IMG/VR virus record: IMGVR_UViG_3300000116_000056
Coordinates: 1-40,511 of that record
DNA length: 40,511 nucleotides
From: a virus
Reading direction: 5' to 3' (one strand)
Shown here: positions 15,664 to 26,179 of the stretch, one piece after another
Position numbering within the stretch: position 1 is the stretch's first letter
Layout of the letters: each line of letters opens with the position of its first letter
Made by a program: the position numbers and the translations under genes
The notes under the pieces: model-generated
Seen by the model: the letters and a program-made list of their open reading frames with translations, nothing else
What the model was told of the DNA's origin: nothing
The model's database searches: none

Positions 15664-17450
15664 CGGTTTTTGTTCTTACGCCGACGATTCCGTCTCTTGT
15701 TCTTCTTACTGTTCATCTTCTTAGTACGAGTTCCCCCAGAACCCTTACGGCCACCGCGATTTGCTCTCCGTGCCGTTCTCTCAGTCCGACGTATCGCCCT
15801 CCGTCCTGCTGTAGACCTCTTCTTATTACGCCGCTTTCTTCTTTCGAGATTGCTGACATTCTTACCACGTTTTTTTGATCTCCGCCTTCTCTTCTTCCTG
15901 CTACCCAGTCCACTTCCAACGATAGGACTTGCACCACGGCGTCTAAGTCCTCTACGCTTCTTACGAACGCGACCCTTACGTTTCCGTCTACCTGAAGCAT
16001 TGCCAGCAATAGTTGCTGTACTCTCATTATTCTTAGAACTTGCACCACCACTGTCAGGTGTAGAATCTCTAGTCAATAGAAGAATAGAAACCATCCTTCC
16101 ATCATGATACTTATGCTCGGTACTAGCAATGATCCAAAGACCACTCCAACGTTGATCTGTAGGAATGTTTGTACTATTTGGGTTATCTGGCAATGCTTTT
16201 GGAATCGTGATATGAATACCATGACCTGCCATCAAATCTAAGTTACCTGGTACACTAATTTGAAGTTGTTGATATAAAAGACTCTTTAGTCTTAGGAAAT
16301 TGTATGATGCTGCTTCAACAATAGACTTCACACTCTGTCCACCAATTGGAGCAGACTGTTTAGATTCTTTTTTCTCCATGTTGCCATAACCACGAGTCAT
16401 GACTGGTTTCAGTCTTACTCGTCTAGGAGTATCAACCATCGATGGTTCACCCTGAGGTGCCAACTTACTCATGTCAAATGGTGGTTTTCCCTTTGGATTG
16501 ACATGTGACATGTCTTTCCATTTTCCTCTAATAGTATACTCATCCAATGCTAATGGTAGGTCGCCTGATTGATCTCCACTAGAACTCTTAGCAAGATCAA
16601 CAGGATCAAATCCTTGTGTATATCCTGCCCATGTACCATGCCTAAGATTTTCTAGCAGATTATAAGACTTGGGAAATGAAATCGATTGGATGATAAAGTC
16701 TTTAGTTTCTTCTGCCATACTTGGCAGGTTTGCTTGACTATATCCATAGTAATACAGTTGTGGTAATGGTCTCTTACCAGTACCTTTCTTTTCGCCTTTT
16801 GGTGTCTGTTTATTTGCATCCTCAATCATCGCATCGATTGTAATGTAATGATATCCAGATAGGTTCTCGTAGAAAATATATCCACTCTGACGTAGTTTAC
16901 CTGTCTGCTTTTTGCGAAGAGACTTCTCTGCTAGGTAGTTGATAGCATTGAATGGTCTCCAGTTTGGACAAACATAGGAAAACTTTTCATCCGTTGCTTC
17001 TGCATACAACTCTTTATCAGTGTTGATATAGTCTGAACCTAGATACTCGCCAACATAATCATCAGTCTTTTTACCTTGGAATGAACCAAATACATTGACA
17101 AGTTCATTTCTCAGAAACTCTTCTGAACAGAGGTGTAAATTATATACGTTACGTTTTTCAAATCTAACACGATCAGTGATCTTATAAAGTTGAAGATTGT
17201 ATTCAACTTTCTTTCCACTAACATCGTTTTCTAATGTGAGGAAGAATGTTTCACCACCTGCTAGTCTACTGATGACATCACCAGAGTCATCAAATGCTAT
17301 AATTGCTCTGATAGCAGGGGAATCAATCCCCTCCATGATTCTAACTTCGTTTACATACTCATCAAATTTGTTAGTCTTGTTATCTGGTCCTGCAACACCT
17401 TCAATCTCAAGACTAAATCCTGTTGCGCCTTGTCCTCCTTTTACGTCCAT
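15660..17450 (-). CDS. Baseplate hub protein (gp27-like) with long Arg/Lys-rich tail
   Basis: 596 residues. About 10-210 resemble the first half of phage hub proteins (EVRIMEGIDSPAIRAIIAFDD, then ITDRVRFEKRNVYNLHLCSEEFLRN). Residues 160-175 (CPNWRPFNAINYLAEKS) match the hub pattern W-x-P-x-x-A-I-x-x-L. About 375-460 is the closing beta domain (LQISVPGNLDLMAGHGI, WSGLWIIASTEHKYHDG). From 488 to 596 the protein becomes extremely basic: by hand count about 57 of 109 residues are K or R, with only two acidic. T4 gp27 is about 390 residues and has no such tail. It overlaps the upstream giant gene by TGATG, and its place after the hub/tape genes fits a hub ring subunit. The gp27 equivalence is inferred from position and style. 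Confidence 0.65.
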   Translation of the reverse strand: MDVKGGQGATGFSLEIEGVAGPDNKTNKFDEYVNEVRIMEGIDSPAIRAIIAFDDSGDVISRLAGGETFFLTLENDVSGKKVEYNLQLYKITDRVRFEKRNVYNLHLCSEEFLRNELVNVFGSFQGKKTDDYVGEYLGSDYINTDKELYAEATDEKFSYVCPNWRPFNAINYLAEKSLRKKQTGKLRQSGYIFYENLSGYHYITIDAMIEDANKQTPKGEKKGTGKRPLPQLYYYGYSQANLPSMAEETKDFIIQSISFPKSYNLLENLRHGTWAGYTQGFDPVDLAKSSSGDQSGDLPLALDEYTIRGKWKDMSHVNPKGKPPFDMSKLAPQGEPSMVDTPRRVRLKPVMTRGYGNMEKKESKQSAPIGGQSVKSIVEAASYNFLRLKSLLYQQLQISVPGNLDLMAGHGIHITIPKALPDNPNSTNIPTDQRWSGLWIIASTEHKYHDGRMVSILLLTRDSTPDSGGASSKNNESTATIAGNASGRRKRKGRVRKKRRGLRRRGASPIVGSGLGSRKKRRRRSKKRGKNVSNLERRKRRNKKRSTAGRRAIRRTERTARRANRGGRKGSGGTRTKKMNSKKNKRRNRRRKNKNR

Positions 17451-20400
17451 CAGAAACCTCCAGCAAACAGACCAAATCCAGGACGATAATTGTATATATC
17501 GTCACTAGATAACCGACCACCGCCGCCACCTTTCGGAACAGGAACTTTGATTGGTTTATCTGGTATTGGTTGAGACATTGATGCTACTTGTTTTTGTGCC
17601 TGTTGATTCTGCTGTGTTGTTTGTGTGGCAACTGCAACTGCTCCTTGTTTTTGTTTTGATTTTATTGCATTCTTTGCCGTTGCAACATTAGTAGTTTGAA
17701 GTTTTACTTGCTGTGGTTTTACAACAGGAGGTTTGATACTTGCAGGTACTACCTCTCCTCTAAGTTCACGTTTCAGAGAGCGTTCTTTCAACTTGTAAGC
17801 TTGGACTTTCTGTTCTAACTTAGATGCGGTAATTAGACCACCAGTACGAGGATCCTTGAATATCCCTAATCCTTTTGGTCCTACTGGGGAGTTCCTCGCT
17901 GCTTGAAGGTAATCTCTTTGGTGCTTGAGCATCTCCATCTGTTTTCGGAATGCCGCCTTCTGCTCAATACCACCACCAGCAGATCTGAGTACCTTGATGG
18001 GTCCACCTTGTGATGCAAAAGAAATACCAGCACGCTTACTACTTCCAGTTTCCATCACACCTGCTTCATCATTACGACGCCAGTTATTGATACCACCGTT
18101 ATGACTTGCTAATCTACTACGATATGCAGAAATAACTGGAGCATAATTACCAGTGCTCAGTGACTGTTTCACAGTATCTTTTATACCAGCACCAGACAAA
18201 GATCCATAGTTGAAGACTACAGACTCTAGTCCTGCTTTTACTCTATTTGGTGCCTTATTATAGTCACTGCCAACCTCATCGGTGAGACGCTTGCGGTGCT
18301 CAATAATATGCTTAGACTTGATCCAATATGCTTCATCTTTAGTAATCGTGTCACCCTTCTGGACCTTACCAGACTTACGGAATCCCTTTGGATAGTAAGT
18401 TGCACCAATACCAATCGTAGGAATCTCCCACCCATAGTTAGCATCAGCATATGCCTTTAGTCTTAGACCTTCATAATTACCTAGCAGTGCTGCAAACTTC
18501 TTATCAAATCCACCACTGACTGATGCTGAACCACCTGCTAGTTCTCCCGTTGCAGATGCTGAACCACCTGCTAGTTCTCCCGTTGCAGAGTCCCTATTTC
18601 CAGCTTCACTACCAGGACCTGCAGTAGATGCATCTTCGGGATCCTTACCACCGAATGTAGCTGCATTGAGTTTTGCACCTCCATACGTTTTATCACCATC
18701 AATTGAATGAGCACCCTTTAGTAAGAGGTTACCCAGGTTGGCAATCATTGACCCAATACTCTCTTGTGGTTTTACATCAGCACCAGTAGAGTTTGTACCA
18801 CCACCTTGTGATGTTTCTCCTGTAGTTTGTACATCACTATTGATTGCTCCACCACCAGGAACACCACCTTTACCAGGAACAACAATCCTACCAGTACCAG
18901 GACCACGGTCAACCCAGATGCCATCCATCAATGACTTAGGATATACAACACCCCTACCTTTAGTATCTGATGCACTAGTGAGATTGCTTTGTGCCCATCC
19001 ACCCTTGGGAGTTGGGTTCAGTTTTCCATAGGGATCGTTTACAACGATGTCATTACCTCGGTAACCAATACCAGCAACCATGTGACCACTGCCACTGTTA
19101 TGTTGCAGACCTAGGATAACAGGTTTACCTGCATTGATTGCTGATTTATATGCATCATATGATCCAAAATCACCACCAGATGCAGGAACACCAAACTTTT
19201 TCATTGCTGGTGGGTGTGCTCCCATGCTAGTGGAAGCACCATACTGCGAACGAGTCTTATTATACTCGTCAGGTAAGATATTCTTTCCTAAGATTGCCGA
19301 GACAACCATTGCAGCAGAAGTGGAGAAACATTGTGAGTCTCCACCAGTACCTAGAGCATCAGTTTTGTTTGACCTCTGGTTGAAATATGGTACGCTTAGG
19401 ATTTTACCACCACCAGCAGGAGGTTCTTTTTCTCCAGCATTCTGTTTTTGACCCTCTGCAATCTTTTCTGCTGGAATATTGGCACCCCCAGATGCCTTCA
19501 GTGTTCTACCTAAAGAACCACCATTAGAAAAGAAACCTGCATGTTGTGCTTCAGAATTACGACGTGCTGTTAGACCTTTATTACCTCTAGTAGCAGGAGT
19601 GTCATATGGAACAACGAATGCAGACCCACCTGGTTTTGAGTACACCATCTCGGTGCCATGACCAATGAATGCTGTACTAGCACCACCATCCAGTGATACA
19701 GGATACCCTGTCTGTGGTCCTTGAATGATACCACCATTAGCAAACCCACGTAGAGATCCACCTGTTGCCATCTTAGGCATAGCAGTAGCTTGCTCTTCCT
19801 GGTCAAAGAAAGATTTACCACCCAGAATGTTTCCAAACCCTGCCTTAGCATAGTTGAAAGCACCAACAGCACCTTCTTTCAGGTTTGTTGCCGCTTGTCT
19901 AGGATCTTTTATAGCATCTGAAACGCCGCGGCCAATGTTTCCTACCTGTTGCCCTGCATATTCTTGCAGATTCTTAGGTGGTTCTGGAGCAGGTTGTGGT
20001 CCTCCTACATTCTGTCCTGTTGGTGCAGGTGCCTCTTGTGTAGTGCCAACACTTTCTGCTGGTCCACCTGCTTCTGTATCACCTGCTGCAGAAGTTGTAG
20101 CAATACCAAACGCTGCAGTCAGTTGATCTAATTGAGATTGAATCTTAGGAGTAAGACCTTCAATCTCAGCTTCCTGATCCTTTTCATCATCAGTTATATC
20201 TTCTTCTGCCTTTTGCAGATCCTTACCAGTGACACCATCATTATTCATGGCATCTAATGCCATGCCAGTACCAATAATAGCACCACTGAATAGCAATGCC
20301 TTACCAGCTTTGCTACCAAATAGTTTGCCCAATCCTCTTCTCAGTCCTTTAGAAGTAGCAAGTTTTAGTAACTTCTTACTAAACCACATCAAAGATTTGA

Positions 20401-21067
20401 AGAAACCTTTGAATACTTTGAAGACCATCTTGACGACGAACTTGATCGCCTTGCCGCCAAATAGTTTCTTGAATGCTAAGAATCCTGTTCCTAATGCAAT
20501 CAAGAACAATCCACCCTTCAGGATCTCCTTCCAGAAAGGCATTTCAGTAAACTTAGCAATCAAATCTAGGGTAGTCATTACGATACCCGAAGTCACATTG
20601 AATAGGAACTTACCTACACTAATGACACCTTCAATAATCTTTTGTAACTTCTCACGATTTTCTTCCTTGCTCATCCACTGCATGAGTGGAACTAGAACAA
20701 ATAATTTGAACATCCCACCAAGGAGATCTAAGATACTGCCAGCACCCTTTGCTACTAGTGCGGCAATACCACCGAGAACCATACCACCGAATGGATCTCT
20801 TTTCTTTTTCTGTAGTGCAGGTTTATCTCTTCTTTTATTATCCTTTTCAATTTTCTGCTCCGCTAGGAAGTTCTTTGCAGATAGATTTTTGAACTCCTCA
20901 AACTGTCTAGCAATACCATTGACAGAACTACCTAAATTATTGAGACCTTCAACAACTTTATCATTGCCTACCGAAACTATTCCAGGTTGACTCTCAACCT
21001 TCCCTACAAATTTGTAGAAATTTATCTTTTGCTTACGCTTTTCCTTATTGACTCTTTGATCTGCCAT
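17450..21067 (-). CDS. Giant hub/tape-measure-like protein with C39-type peptidase and GH24 lysozyme domains
   Basis: 1205 residues from the ATG at 21067 (TGATG overlap with the upstream gene; a TTG one codon earlier is less likely). Residues 35-165 resemble the N-terminus of the 1083-residue neighbour (VVEGLNNLG, then MQWMSKEENREKLQKI), followed by hydrophobic segments to about 270 and a Pro/Gly/Ala linker. Residues about 556-690 form a papain-like C39-type domain: VPYFNQ with Gln564, SQCFSTSAAM with Cys580, SGHMVAGIGY with His662, and VNDPYGK with Asp678. After a linker with a 33-base tandem repeat, residues 853-1008 are a GH24 lysozyme: YEGLRLKAYAD (Glu866, Asp875) and PTIGIG (Thr884). A Gln/Lys-rich tail follows. 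It probably lies in the tail and cuts peptide and glycan during DNA entry. Tape-measure function is inference. Confidence 0.8.
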   Translation of the reverse strand: MADQRVNKEKRKQKINFYKFVGKVESQPGIVSVGNDKVVEGLNNLGSSVNGIARQFEEFKNLSAKNFLAEQKIEKDNKRRDKPALQKKKRDPFGGMVLGGIAALVAKGAGSILDLLGGMFKLFVLVPLMQWMSKEENREKLQKIIEGVISVGKFLFNVTSGIVMTTLDLIAKFTEMPFWKEILKGGLFLIALGTGFLAFKKLFGGKAIKFVVKMVFKVFKGFFKSLMWFSKKLLKLATSKGLRRGLGKLFGSKAGKALLFSGAIIGTGMALDAMNNDGVTGKDLQKAEEDITDDEKDQEAEIEGLTPKIQSQLDQLTAAFGIATTSAAGDTEAGGPAESVGTTQEAPAPTGQNVGGPQPAPEPPKNLQEYAGQQVGNIGRGVSDAIKDPRQAATNLKEGAVGAFNYAKAGFGNILGGKSFFDQEEQATAMPKMATGGSLRGFANGGIIQGPQTGYPVSLDGGASTAFIGHGTEMVYSKPGGSAFVVPYDTPATRGNKGLTARRNSEAQHAGFFSNGGSLGRTLKASGGANIPAEKIAEGQKQNAGEKEPPAGGGKILSVPYFNQRSNKTDALGTGGDSQCFSTSAAMVVSAILGKNILPDEYNKTRSQYGASTSMGAHPPAMKKFGVPASGGDFGSYDAYKSAINAGKPVILGLQHNSGSGHMVAGIGYRGNDIVVNDPYGKLNPTPKGGWAQSNLTSASDTKGRGVVYPKSLMDGIWVDRGPGTGRIVVPGKGGVPGGGAINSDVQTTGETSQGGGTNSTGADVKPQESIGSMIANLGNLLLKGAHSIDGDKTYGGAKLNAATFGGKDPEDASTAGPGSEAGNRDSATGELAGGSASATGELAGGSASVSGGFDKKFAALLGNYEGLRLKAYADANYGWEIPTIGIGATYYPKGFRKSGKVQKGDTITKDEAYWIKSKHIIEHRKRLTDEVGSDYNKAPNRVKAGLESVVFNYGSLSGAGIKDTVKQSLSTGNYAPVISAYRSRLASHNGGINNWRRNDEAGVMETGSSKRAGISFASQGGPIKVLRSAGGGIEQKAAFRKQMEMLKHQRDYLQAARNSPVGPKGLGIFKDPRTGGLITASKLEQKVQAYKLKERSLKRELRGEVVPASIKPPVVKPQQVKLQTTNVATAKNAIKSKQKQGAVAVATQTTQQNQQAQKQVASMSQPIPDKPIKVPVPKGGGGGRLSSDDIYNYRPGFGLFAGGF
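18522..18587. repeat. 33-base perfect tandem repeat (two copies) in a linker
   Basis: Two identical adjacent 33-base units encode two copies of an 11-residue Gly/Ala/Ser/Thr segment (TGELAGGSASA in circular order) just before the GH24 domain of the 1205-residue protein. Perfect identity at DNA level points to a recent duplication or slippage that lengthens the linker in frame. Confidence 0.9.
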
Positions 21068-24000
21068 CAATAATTCTCAAACCTGATTGAGTGATCAGCC
21101 TTTCCAGTAACTGTAGTAATTACTTTAGTGCCCCGTGTTCTATTTATTGGCATTGGAATGACCTTTGGTATTGGAACGACTACCAATTCTTGCTCTTCCT
21201 GTTCATGAATAGCAGCAACAGACTGAGATGCTTTAGCAATACTATTTACTCTACCACCACCAGACATTTTCGCTAAGAAACTCTTAGCATATTTTATTCT
21301 AGGTCCATCATGTGCTACACCTGCACGTTCCCAGGTTTTACGGAAATCTACTGTGGCATTTGCAACATCAGTCTTTTGTTTGAACTCTCCCCATGATCCA
21401 GATGTTCCAGTACCTTTACGAATGAATCCGCCATTACCTGACATCAATTCAGACATTAGGAACTTATAGTTGTCTGAATTACTTGGGATCTTACTGTAGT
21501 CACCACCATAAGAAGCGATGAACTTATCATATCTATCACCAGGTGCAGAGTTAGTCCACTGTGCCCATCCATATCCCTTTCTAACTGTACCTTGAGGCCA
21601 TGGTTTACTATTCTTACCAAAAGGTCCACCTTCTCTGATACCAGGAATGAATCCAGCAGATTCATGTGCCATGTTACCAGAAATTGCCGCTGCTGCTTGT
21701 TTAGTAGCACCAGTATCGCTCATAATCTTTTTAGAAATGTCAACACCTTTTGCGGTAACACTACCAGAGACTGCTAATTTTCCAGGATCCCCTGTATATC
21801 CACCACCACTAGTAATACTATTGCTTGAATCACTGTCAGTAGTAGGAGAGGTTGATTTATCTTCTGCATCTGGTGGTGTAGGAGGTGTTATAGCATTGGG
21901 GAATAAGGATTTCATTACACCCAGTAATATACTTGCAGCACCACCAGTAGGATCTGCCGCTTTCAACACCTTCATACCAATTTCAGTTGGTGGTGGAGGA
22001 GATGCTTTTTTATCTAATTCTTTCTGCTTCTCAACTGTATCAGATGTTCTTTTATGTACTGGTTGCTGCTTTAGAAGTTCTGCTTCAGATGCAGCGACAA
22101 CTCTTTTTTCAACTTCCTCAGGGGTAAGACCTTCTGCCCTTGCTTCTGCCCTTGCTTTCTGTGCTGCTTGCCACACTGGTAAGTTTGAAGAACCAGTCTT
22201 TGTAGGATCAAGTACAGATCCACCCATAGACATCTTGATATTACGAACTAAACCACCTGCTGCTTTCTCTGGTAAATTTTCGTCTGGAGTTGCAGCATCC
22301 AATTTTTCCTTATCGAAGTTGAATGCATCCATGAATGATACATCCTTCTTAGGAAGACCAATAACATCAGCAAGTTTATCTGCTAACCATTCTCCACCCC
22401 ATTGTGTAGCACCAGTGACAACACCAGCAAGAATTGCAGCACCAATACCACCAGTACCAGCACCAATAGCACCCAAGATAGCAGTACCAGCAACCAAACC
22501 TGCGATAGAACCAGCAAGTTTTAGTGCCACACGACGAGGATCTTGACCTGCCTTCAGTTCCATTGCAGCAAACAATGTCTCAACAATAACGTCTAGAGGA
22601 CCAATCTTGAATGGCGCTGCAGCGAGAGCGTTCTTTGTACCCTGGACAGCAGGTTTCGCAATCTTTACAAACTTCTTGAAAAGACCTTCTCCACCTTCTT
22701 TTCCTGCCTTACCTTTGAACTTATCAATAAAGAACTTGGTAACAGGATTCCCTTCAATTAGATCTGAAGCGGTCGCCTTCAGTGGTGCCAAGAACTTATC
22801 GACAACAAAATCTTTACCTTTTGCAGCAAGGTTTGTAATATTATCGCTCAGTTTAGTCCAGTTACTAGAAACTGTTTGTGGGAGTTCCTGAACAGTTTTC
22901 AGGAAAATTTCTAGACCCTCCTTATATTGTTTGAATTTTGCAACGGCAAACTCACTAGTGATATCCCATGCACCTTTAGCAATATCAATACCCTGCCCAA
23001 CTTGCTTGCCGAACCTGGTATTAGAAAACCACTTTAGAAGATCACTACCACCTTGGGTAATAGGATCAATAAATCTTTTCTTTGCTGCATCTTTAGTTTC
23101 TGATAATGCCTGCCTAGGATCCGCTCTAAACCCTTCTACTATATCAAATGCCTTTTTACCAGCATTTTGTAGAGGTTTCGTTATCTCATCGGCACGTTGG
23201 AGTAATCCTTCGCCACCCGCTTTTATAGCATCCAATCCACCCGACAATCGTTTTAGTATACTGGGTGGCAGACTATTCTTGAATGCCTCAACTGCCCTTG
23301 CAACTGCCTTTGCAATCTTAGGTTTGACTACATTCTTGAAAAAGTTTGCACCCCATCTAGCAATCTTTGATGAAAGATCAGCAAGGAATACACCAATAAT
23401 AGAGAAGACACCTAAAACTTTCTTCAACCAGCGTCCTTTCAGACGCTTGTACATAATCCTAATTCTCTGCCTTAGTTTTCCCAACCAAGTCTTAGGTTTC
23501 TTTGTCTTGAGTTTATCTGGTCCATCTGGATCAGGTTTACTACGATCTAAACCACTATCATCATCCGATGACAACATTCCTAGAAGATCTAGGATACCAC
23601 CCATCATACTGAATGGGTTCAGGAACATCGCTAAACCCTTGAGAGCAAGCAATCCTACCAGGAGTTGACCGAATCCCATTATGGATTCCCAGACCCCTCC
23701 TAGGTCCCCCTTCATGATCTTACTGATACCACCAAACAGTCCTGCCAGACCGTCCATCAAATTAGTTACACCAAATGTTCCCCATTTCCATAGGAAATCA
23801 AAGATTACTTTGGTAAACTCTACAAGTTTTTTTACTTTTTCTACATTTTTTTCATCAGAAAACCATTTCATGATGCCAATAATGGCAGCAAACTGGATGA
23901 ATGGTTTTATCAAATTCCAGATAGGTGTCAGCAATTGCTGTAAAAAACTACCCTTCTTTTTTAGTTTCTTATCCTTCTTCCCTACTTCCTTACCAACTTT

Positions 24001-24318
24001 CTTTTCATCTATAGGTTTGACTGCAGCACCACGCTCTTGACTTGCTTCTTTCTGATCAAGTTGCCTGTCTCTATCTGCTCTACGTTCATCAACCTCTTTA
24101 TTTCTTAGAGATATTGCACGAACTTCCTCAATAGATTTCAGTCCTCGGATTGAGGTGTAAATACTATCCGTTGCTGCACCAAGTCTATTGATACCAAGAA
24201 CAATCTTACCACTAGGCAGTTTCTTAGCGTTTGGCGTTTTCACGCCACTAGATTTCAAGGTCTCCTTATCCTTGGAACTAAGACTTGGGTTTACAAATTT
24301 GTAACCTAGTTTTGCCAT
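21067..24318 (-). CDS. Giant hub/tape-measure-like protein with tail lysozyme domain
   Basis: 1083 residues. Residues 36-90 (KIVLGINRLGAATDSIYTSI and a charged helix) and 130-180 (LLTPIWNLIKPF, MKWFSDEKNVEKVKKL) match the order of segments in the 1205-residue neighbour, so the two look paralogous. The middle (180-690) is helical with several hydrophobic Gly/Ala-rich stretches (for example AGTAILGAIGAGTGGIGAAI). Residues about 860-1015 form a tail-lysozyme domain: TKQAAAAISGNMAHESAGF with catalytic-type Glu886, then KGYGWAQWTNS and RYDKFI, as in the phage tail lysozyme family. The C-terminal 50 residues are a beta-rich extension. Its position after the chaperone-like pair is where tape-measure genes sit in tailed phages. 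It probably travels in the tail tube and degrades peptidoglycan at entry. Confidence 0.8.
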   Translation of the reverse strand: MAKLGYKFVNPSLSSKDKETLKSSGVKTPNAKKLPSGKIVLGINRLGAATDSIYTSIRGLKSIEEVRAISLRNKEVDERRADRDRQLDQKEASQERGAAVKPIDEKKVGKEVGKKDKKLKKKGSFLQQLLTPIWNLIKPFIQFAAIIGIMKWFSDEKNVEKVKKLVEFTKVIFDFLWKWGTFGVTNLMDGLAGLFGGISKIMKGDLGGVWESIMGFGQLLVGLLALKGLAMFLNPFSMMGGILDLLGMLSSDDDSGLDRSKPDPDGPDKLKTKKPKTWLGKLRQRIRIMYKRLKGRWLKKVLGVFSIIGVFLADLSSKIARWGANFFKNVVKPKIAKAVARAVEAFKNSLPPSILKRLSGGLDAIKAGGEGLLQRADEITKPLQNAGKKAFDIVEGFRADPRQALSETKDAAKKRFIDPITQGGSDLLKWFSNTRFGKQVGQGIDIAKGAWDITSEFAVAKFKQYKEGLEIFLKTVQELPQTVSSNWTKLSDNITNLAAKGKDFVVDKFLAPLKATASDLIEGNPVTKFFIDKFKGKAGKEGGEGLFKKFVKIAKPAVQGTKNALAAAPFKIGPLDVIVETLFAAMELKAGQDPRRVALKLAGSIAGLVAGTAILGAIGAGTGGIGAAILAGVVTGATQWGGEWLADKLADVIGLPKKDVSFMDAFNFDKEKLDAATPDENLPEKAAGGLVRNIKMSMGGSVLDPTKTGSSNLPVWQAAQKARAEARAEGLTPEEVEKRVVAASEAELLKQQPVHKRTSDTVEKQKELDKKASPPPPTEIGMKVLKAADPTGGAASILLGVMKSLFPNAITPPTPPDAEDKSTSPTTDSDSSNSITSGGGYTGDPGKLAVSGSVTAKGVDISKKIMSDTGATKQAAAAISGNMAHESAGFIPGIREGGPFGKNSKPWPQGTVRKGYGWAQWTNSAPGDRYDKFIASYGGDYSKIPSNSDNYKFLMSELMSGNGGFIRKGTGTSGSWGEFKQKTDVANATVDFRKTWERAGVAHDGPRIKYAKSFLAKMSGGGRVNSIAKASQSVAAIHEQEEQELVVVPIPKVIPMPINRTRGTKVITTVTGKADHSIRFENY

Positions 24319-24500
24319 TATCGTTTGCGTGATTGTTCCTTATAACGACGTTCTTCCTCCTTCAAATATTCCATGAGCATCTGGATATAAATATCACGTT
24401 CCCATGGGATCATATTTTCGATGTTGTCAAGAGACCATTTATGATATTGCACTAGCGCGAAGTTAGTTTCATAATAGTTTTTTAGACTATTATGTAACAT
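24318..24500 (-). CDS. Tail/baseplate assembly chaperone-like small protein (gp51 position)
   Basis: 60 residues: NYYETNFALVQYHKW, then MIPWERDIYIQMLMEYLKEEE with a basic end. It lies between gp26 and the first giant hub gene, the place of gene 51 in T4 and of the downstream frame of lambda-type G/GT chaperones. The W-E-R-x-x-Y-x-x-x-L-x-x-x-L-x-x-E pattern recurs in small tail-assembly chaperone products. The ATG is 2 bases after the gp26 stop and has no good ribosome-binding site. However, this frame is exactly the -1 frame at the end of gp26, where a slippery heptamer sits (24509-24515). It may therefore be made mainly as a gp26 fusion. The stop overlaps the next start by one base (TAATG). 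Confidence 0.7.
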   Translation of the reverse strand: MLHNSLKNYYETNFALVQYHKWSLDNIENMIPWERDIYIQMLMEYLKEEERRYKEQSRKR

Positions 24501-24502
24501 CG

Positions 24503-25222
24503 CTACCCGAAAAAAGACGCTAGTCCCTCCAGGGTTACCGTAGAAGTCACATTAGTATTGGGATTGACAACTTCAACATCATGCATCAGTTTAGGCATGG
24601 TTTCAAAGAACTTTTGTACCATCTGAAACTGTTCCGAAGTCAGTTGCTCAAGAAACTCAATCTTTTCTTGCTTGCTAGAATCAGAACCAGGATAGACTTG
24701 ATTTTCATCATAAATGTTATCAATACAATCAGATGCAAGGTCAAATACTTGAGTGATCTCGTCTCGCTCATCATCACCAGTAATATTCATCTTGACAAAG
24801 GTATCCAAGGAAGGATACTTCATCACCATACCCATATTATCAGATAGTTTGATAGTCTTATCGTGCTCATCATCTTCTGAGATTTCAATTGCAGCAAGAT
24901 TGATTTCAACTGTTACCTCAGTTTCACCATCGTCAGGTGCAGTTAGAATAACTTTAGACGATTCACCAACAGACTTAGAACGAATCTTCAAGAAAATATA
25001 TTCAATGTCAAAGGTTGGCAGAGAATCAATAGGAACTGTGATATTAGTACAGTCTTTGATGATCTGTTTGATAGTTTCAATTGTACTATTTTCATCAGAT
25101 GTTTCCATTGCCATCAATAAGAGTTTCTCTTCTTTGACAAGAAATGGTCTAAACTTTATGTTTTTACCAGTCGAAGGAAGTTTCAAAGAATACTGCGGGG
25201 CAGCAATTTTTGGTAATGCCAT
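24503..25222 (-). CDS. Baseplate hub assembly protein gp26-like
   Basis: 239 residues. The opening LPKIAAPQYSLKLPSTGKNIKFRPFLVKEEKLLLMA matches the T4-like baseplate family (LPxxGxxxxFRPFLVKEEKxLLMA, written in parts). It continues with IKQIIKDCT, FDIEYIFLKIRSKSVGE and a central acidic part. The C-terminus is EQLTSEQFQMVQKFFETMPKL, then VTLEGLASFFG. In T4, gp26 helps to assemble the central hub. Related proteins in other myoviruses act as tail-tape chaperones. It has its own late promoter (25245-25252) and starts the transcript of the chaperone, two giant proteins and the hub protein. The last codons contain a -1 slippery sequence. The gp26 call rests on the N-terminal motif and gene order. 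Confidence 0.8.
   Translation of the reverse strand: MALPKIAAPQYSLKLPSTGKNIKFRPFLVKEEKLLLMAMETSDENSTIETIKQIIKDCTNITVPIDSLPTFDIEYIFLKIRSKSVGESSKVILTAPDDGETEVTVEINLAAIEISEDDEHDKTIKLSDNMGMVMKYPSLDTFVKMNITGDDERDEITQVFDLASDCIDNIYDENQVYPGSDSSKQEKIEFLEQLTSEQFQMVQKFFETMPKLMHDVEVVNPNTNVTSTVTLEGLASFFG
24509..24530 (-). promoter_or_regulatory. Probable programmed -1 ribosomal frameshift site
   Basis: On the minus strand, the heptamer T TTT TTC (24515-24509) is in the zero frame of gp26, three codons before its stop. A Shine-Dalgarno-like GGAGG (24530-24526) lies exactly 10 bases upstream, the spacing known to stimulate -1 shifting in bacterial dnaX. A -1 shift reads CGG GTA GCG ATG and enters the 60-residue frame directly. 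An AT-rich 8-bp hairpin begins 15 bases downstream. That is further than usual, so it may not matter. Confidence 0.75.
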
Positions 25223-25321: not shown

Positions 25322-26179
25322 TCAATCTCGGTTTTGTTTCTTTCTGTTCCTTCTATTCCTCTTAGACTTATTAGATCTAGGTCCTTTGTTTTTATTGTTT
25401 GTCTTACGTTGAGAACGCACTCGATCTTTTGCGTTTTTATTCTTGCGATTTGATCCTCCAAATTTAGGATCAGCATAGAATCTATAGCGTTCATATGCGA
25501 AGGTAACATCCAGTGTTACTAGTTCACCAGGGTTGTTAGTGAACTGTAAGGTCCCAACAGATTTAGGAAACACGTTATACATGTGCCACATACCTACAAC
25601 TCTGTTGTACTTAGGCCATGATCTATTTTTACCACCTGCATTCTCGTATACTTTGTAGTCTGCAGGAATAATATCTCTATTACTGCCACGTTCATACTTA
25701 TAGATGAAAAATAATGGAGCAACATACTCATTATAATAATCAACATACTGGTTAGCATCGTTTGCCATGATGGTCATCCATCTTTCAAACACTAGTAGAT
25801 TGACGTATGATCTAGGAATCAAAAACTGTACATTCATCTCAGAGAATGTACTACCAGTTGCATAACTAATCTCAGATCCGACTGCTCGGTATGAACCAGT
25901 CGTAACTTGTTTTGTTGGTGTATTGACTTCGTTTGCATACAGAGAAAAAATTCTCATGTGGTCAACATATTTTTGTTTGAATAAACCAGTATGCAGTCCT
26001 CCTTGACCAAGACCACCTGATAGTGCTCTAGGATAGGTCATTTGAAAATGCCAAAGTTGTGAAGTAGATACTCCATACTTCTCAGGTCCCATAACATGGG
26101 ACATAAAGTTCTGTAGAGACCCACCAAGTGTAGACTCTGCTGCTTCAGCTGATGATCTAAATCGATTTATCTGTGGCAT
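25322..26179 (-). CDS. Tail-tube-type protein (gp19/gp54 family), probable tube initiator, with basic tail
   Basis: 285 residues. Residues 70-235 have the tail-tube outline: VDHMRIFSLYANEVNTP, TFSEMNVQFLIPRSY, FERWMTIMANDAN, then the diagnostic late part NVFPKSVGTLQF...ELVTLDVTFAYERYRF, like the (F/Y)PxSIxxxxxxxx...VTFxYxxY end of gp19-type tube proteins. In T4 the relatives are gp19 (tube) and gp54 (baseplate tube initiator). The location among baseplate genes favours gp54. Residues 243-285 are a basic tail with about 20 K/R in 43 residues, not expected in gp19. It overlaps the gp4 stop by one base and is followed by the hairpin element. Whether it is gp54 or another tube-ring protein needs structure comparison. 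Confidence 0.65.
   Translation of the reverse strand: MPQINRFRSSAEAAESTLGGSLQNFMSHVMGPEKYGVSTSQLWHFQMTYPRALSGGLGQGGLHTGLFKQKYVDHMRIFSLYANEVNTPTKQVTTGSYRAVGSEISYATGSTFSEMNVQFLIPRSYVNLLVFERWMTIMANDANQYVDYYNEYVAPLFFIYKYERGSNRDIIPADYKVYENAGGKNRSWPKYNRVVGMWHMYNVFPKSVGTLQFTNNPGELVTLDVTFAYERYRFYADPKFGGSNRKNKNAKDRVRSQRKTNNKNKGPRSNKSKRNRRNRKKQNRD

Follow-up and report, generated by a model that had tools for sequence, protein, structure and literature searches.

The question raised by this locus is whether a 60-residue open reading frame at the 3' end of gp26 is a separate gene or is reached by ribosomes that change frame within gp26. The window analysed, meaning the whole stretch of DNA under study, is a 40,511-base virus record from a marine cyanophage, and the junction lies on its minus strand. 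Our analysis makes it highly likely that ribosomes reading the 3' end of gp26 undergo programmed −1 frameshifting. The first-pass annotation had proposed the same from the window alone, and the proposal gained support from relatives, from the loss of start codons and from a stem-loop that it had not noted. The best reading of the locus, by analogy with lambda G/GT, is that it would give tail-assembly chaperones of two lengths, the short TAC-N and the long TAC-NC.

Layout of the junction and predicted products

The gene order is tail tube (25322-26179, phrog_45), gp26, the 60-aa frame and a giant gene; a two-ORF arrangement with the second ORF in the −1 frame is present between tail tube and giant gene. 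The zero-frame product, gp26 (239 aa; 24503..25222, minus strand), is the proposed short chaperone TAC-N. Its 3' end reads CTG GAG GGA CTA GCG TCT TTT TTC GGG TAG, the TAG stop being at 24505-24503 (−). The features read from the window by the first-pass annotation were found as described: the slippery heptamer T TTT TTC is in the zero frame of the last gp26 codons (24515-24509, minus strand; codons TCT TTT TTC), GGAGG stands exactly 10 nt upstream of it, an ATG (24500) follows 2 nt past the gp26 stop, and the −1 path from the heptamer into the 60-residue frame is free of stops as far as the TAA at 24320-24318. The −1 frame is open for 15 codons before the gp26 stop and for 62 codons after it.

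The Shine-Dalgarno (SD)-like element GGAGGG (24530-24525, minus strand), 9-10 nt upstream of the heptamer, is the proposed 5' stimulator. On the other side a 5-nt spacer, GGGUA (24504..24508, minus strand), separates the heptamer from a stem-loop found by folding (17 bp with bulges; 24457..24503, minus strand), the proposed 3' stimulator, which covers the final base (G) of the gp26 stop codon as well as the ATG that opens the 60-aa frame. The 60-aa −1 frame (24318..24500, minus strand) would supply the C-terminal domain of the proposed TAC-NC fusion. In the Synechococcus phages S-ShM2, S-SSM2 and S-RIM14, 1,023 nt across the junction region are identical.

With a frameshift at this site, the majority of ribosomes would read TTT TTC GGG TAG and release the 239-aa TAC-N. 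On slipping, the P- and A-site tRNA-Phe pair would re-pair one base back on TTT TTT, and reading would go on as CGG GTA GCG ATG ... into the 60-residue frame. The predicted TAC-NC has 301 aa (gp26 residues 1-238, RVA and the 60 aa), with the fusion junction ...ASFF-RVA-MLHNSLKNYY... and the junction-crossing peptide ...EGLASFFRVAMLHNSLK. Four things are inferred here: slippage by the ribosome, the efficiency of that slippage, production of the fusion and chaperone roles for the proteins.

Conservation of the heptamer and its flanking elements

Scans of viral contigs and named phages gave a total of 343 usable loci, at each of which a C-domain profile was scored in the −1, zero and +1 frames; 176 non-redundant loci with the heptamer served as the subset for codon, start and SD counts. 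An all-family alignment was too divergent for scanning the collection. The C-domain scored best in the −1 frame at 343/343 loci (weakly, with 1.9 bits, at L089), and a zero-frame T TTT TTN was found within the last codons of the gene at 341/343, counts which are not probabilities, the loci being related and phylogenetically non-independent. The alignment check across relatives that had been proposed was thus run, and both the heptamer and the −1 relation are kept, in relatives whose gp26 identities reach down to about 25-40%. At the level of sequence, these comparisons show the cassette and its conservation, and that the C-domain depends on the −1 frame.

Four variants of the heptamer occur among the 176 non-redundant loci, namely TTTTTTC (105), TTTTTTT (63), TTTTTTA (7) and TTTTTTG (1). 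Named phages with T TTT TTC are KVP40, XZ1, AS-zj, Milchi, S-CRM01 and P-HM1, while pf16 has T TTT TTT and Rhizobium P10VF has T TTT TTG. The codon before the two phenylalanine codons of the heptamer ends in T in every non-redundant locus (n=176). The first junction phenylalanine is TTT in 175 of the 176 versus TTC in none, and the second is TTT in 63 versus TTC in 105. Five other conserved phenylalanine columns have TTT:TTC ratios of 101:67, 142:20, 96:71, 76:96 and 126:28, and other conserved two-fold codons have T in about 60-80%. This codon control, taken from the same sequences, answers most of the phylogenetic objection.

At 2 of the 343 loci, both in Ackermannviridae-type phages, the canonical heptamer is missing and the −1 C-domain is retained. 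A −1 C-domain with a heptamer other than T TTT TTN was noted for L089, L090, L362, L363 and L366-L368 (Ackermannviridae and related Vibrio phages), where Serratia phage phiMAM1 has G GTT TTC and the remaining exceptions have ATT TTC or CTT TTC/TTT. In several of these exception phages the C-domain lacks a start codon of its own, and often it carries no gene annotation. In one T4-type phage, gene 51 lies in two frames that change at about residue 120 (L377:1501-2258), by sequencing error or by a real frame change.

Analysis of the upstream element gave an anti-SD pairing energy of −9.8 kcal/mol for GGAGGG, which beats every sampled gp26 position. In 141/176 relatives an AGG precedes the heptamer by 9-10 nt, and the median anti-SD energy of the relatives is −6.1 at the site versus −1.0 elsewhere in gp26. 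Under a synonymous shuffle over the relatives the signal has a z of −0.85 ± 0.12. GAG is used at the site in 74/118 cases versus about 27% elsewhere. A conserved Glu-Gly pair accounts for part of the SD-like signal, and the rest survives the synonymous shuffle.

The stem-loop of the window begins 5 nt past the heptamer and has a folding energy of −17.1 kcal/mol (z −5.3, reached in 0/200 shuffles; z −4.1 against a synonymous null). In the relatives the folding signal peaks (mean z −1.79) at +12 nt, counted from the first base of the heptamer, and is near zero across most of the ±240 nt scanned; against a null preserving the fusion peptide, z is −1.94 ± 0.13, with 51% at p ≤ 0.05. A global RNA consensus of 151 relatives held no shared helix. 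Since the structures are lineage-specific, covariation was counted in clade alignments only: clade A6 shows clear compensatory changes (6 pairs, 0/500 shuffles), clade A4 shows some, and covariation is weak in the clade of the window itself. The position of the stem-loop is kept while its pairing partners change between lineages. Lineage-specific stem-loops at one fixed position may offer a natural series for following the turnover of frameshift stimulators. Overall, the cassette is dnaX-like, with a putative SD-like stimulator, the heptamer and a putative stem-loop stimulator.

Alternative routes into the 60-residue frame

The alternative named by the first-pass annotation is reinitiation, in which translation ends at the TAG (24505-24503) and resumes from the ATG 2 nt on, giving a separate 60-aa gp51. 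The ATG of the window is placed so that reinitiation could use it, although it is buried in the stem, and 64/176 relatives also have an ATG 2-10 codons past the heptamer. However, 85/176 relatives have no ATG, GTG or TTG in the −1 frame between the point where it opens and the tenth codon beyond the heptamer, and a −1-frame stop stands directly 5' of the heptamer in 34/176, so that the frame can be entered only there (in L061, for example, it opens TTT TTT CGG ATA AGC). Reinitiation therefore cannot be the conserved mechanism, and in that capacity the alternative was not borne out. Furthermore, it has no need of the synonymous invariance of the heptamer, and T4 carries the C-domain in fused form only. 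We consider it improbable as the explanation of the locus, while the ATG of the window could allow some reinitiation besides frameshifting. The claim that the 60-aa frame has no good ribosome-binding site proved uninformative and was dropped as evidence: many genes in the window, gp26 itself included, have no SD, and for this reason SD absence is no evidence against a start.

Transcriptional slippage would place the change of frame in the mRNA, some of which would be in the −1 frame after RNA polymerase had slipped on the T run. The run has six T or more and is longer in some relatives, as this explanation would like, but most runs are only six T followed by C (TTTTTTC in 105/176), and polymerase slippage typically needs longer ones. 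Nor does it need the T TTT TTN phase, which is kept, and an SD-like element and a stem-loop at ribosomal distances argue against it; we regard it as very improbable. That two unrelated genes overlap here and the heptamer arose by chance is conceivable in that the 12,179 codons of the window contain 3 in-frame copies of T TTT TTC. Against this stand the retention of the heptamer at 341/343 loci at the low gp26 identities given above, the 60 open −1 codons (P about 2.6e-5 from the internal stop density of gp26) and the in-frame fusion of both domains in T4, and chance can practically be dismissed. The stem-loop, the loss of start codons and the codon control are the evidence for programmed −1 frameshifting that comes from the present analysis.

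Protein families, known systems and the next gene

In profile searches gp26 matched PF12322 (E 4.5e-72, columns 2-218/219) and phrog_150 'baseplate hub' (E 9.7e-83), and its AlphaFold model has a pLDDT of 89. The 60-aa frame matched phrog_634 (gp51; E 1.1e-27, positions 60-118 of 121) as well as the end of phrog_150 (columns 240-281 of 282, E 3.8e-5). As it matches the last columns of phrog_150, some members of that family are already fused. T4 gp26 (208 aa) has the first domain only, and T4 gp51 (249 aa), the product of a separate, divergent gene, has the PF12322 and phrog_634 domains in one frame, matching phrog_150 (13-280/282) and phrog_634. Taken alone, the pairwise similarity between the 60 aa and the T4 gp51 C-terminus is weak (E 0.003); the KVP40 record remarks on the same likeness. 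With a T4-type gp51 modelled as stand-in for the fusion protein, the predicted order of elements is that of the window gp26 followed by C-terminal helices.

PMC3004832 lists T4 gp26 and gp51 as chaperones of hub assembly, with gp51 missing from the final particle. The HK97 TAC came up as a weak fold match (2ob9_B; probability 0.82, E 0.63, TM 0.41 on the target, 63 columns), the sole PDB match with probability above 0.5 among the matches listed; the HK97 TAC was not among the matches listed for the T4-type gp51 model. A PDB sequence search using the gp26 profile and an NCBIfam search gave no match. Homology to T4 gp26/gp51, synteny and the weak HK97 TAC fold match, this last only suggestive, point to a putative chaperone role.

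In RefSeq S-ShM2, gp51 ('baseplate hub assembly catalyst') is entered apart from gp26 with no join, and a join annotation is absent from all public phage records examined; in some cyanophage genomes the 60-aa frame is left unannotated. Most likely the cyanophage 60-aa 'gp51' is no separate gene but the C-terminal section of a fusion chaperone, and hence annotations should carry a join.

A frameshift of this type, very probable here, is already known in phages, and hundreds of relatives keep the arrangement. Vladimirov et al. reportedly found frameshifting to be conserved in several T4-like groups, T4 using genes 26 and 51, and these two genes suggest a route by which a gene copy could replace a frameshift. 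As in lambda G/GT, a −1 shift near the 3' end of the short chaperone gene would add a C-domain, with the tape-measure gene, in the window a candidate, downstream; unlike in the cyanophage, the lambda heptamer is G GGA AAG, and the lambda sequences are unrelated to cyanophage gp26. Judging from lambda gpG/gpGT, the short form may coat the tape-measure protein and the C-domain may recruit tail-tube subunits, which would bring marine T4-like phages under lambda's tail-length logic. Neither the G nor the GT product is in the lambda virion, and a 2016 review kept T4 as an exception (PMC5009743). The closest earlier work, Vladimirov, Gautam & Davidson 2022 (Virology 566:9-15, doi 10.1016/j.virol.2021.11.003), reportedly assigns T4-like phage TAC genes; passages citing that study mention poly-T −1 signals in T4-like TAC-N genes (PMC12846349) and separate short and fused long copies in some T4-like phages (PMC10885494).

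Likeness to E. coli dnaX comprises an internal SD-like element, an X XXY YYZ heptamer, a 5-nt linker and a downstream stem-loop, and in the window the SD-like element about 10 nt upstream and the stem-loop at 5 nt are both present. The internal SD of dnaX is described in PMC5600365; its heptamer is A AAA AAG (50-80%), its linker AGUGA has 5 nt like the cyanophage spacer, and the geometry is 11-12 nt (PMC7282821). In contrast to dnaX, where the shift leads to a truncated product, U UUU UUC in the cyanophage would lead to an extended one. A conserved poly-T −1 site at the TAC-N end, as in the cyanophage, is found in phage Adele and in the TACs of Vandenendeviridae/Andersonviridae, where the C-domain is usually annotated as a separate gene (PMC12846349); there, however, the motif is GTTTTT and the phage families are others.

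The next gene (1083 aa; 21067..24318, minus strand) had been called tape-measure-like. Its giant size and its position stand, and it is a tape-measure candidate on these two grounds, whereas its profile matches are to 'endolysin', to a profile of unknown function and to Phage_lysozyme2. At 76/176 non-redundant loci the start that follows overlaps the C-domain stop or adjoins it directly, and at most others it lies within 30 nt. It is possible, though rather unlikely, that frameshifting also sets the amount of the next protein; if so, frame-shifted ribosomes would reach the 1083-aa start, and a single slippery site would have the tape-measure candidate and the long chaperone made at a fixed ratio. 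In the window, TAATG (24316-24320) holds both the C-domain stop and the overlapping start codon of the 1083-aa gene, a gene with no SD. Two consecutive giant genes lie behind the junction (21067-24318 and 17450-21070) and differ in their cell-wall domains, the 1083-aa protein having Phage_lysozyme2 and the 1206-aa protein Peptidase_C39-like and T4-type phage lysozyme domains.
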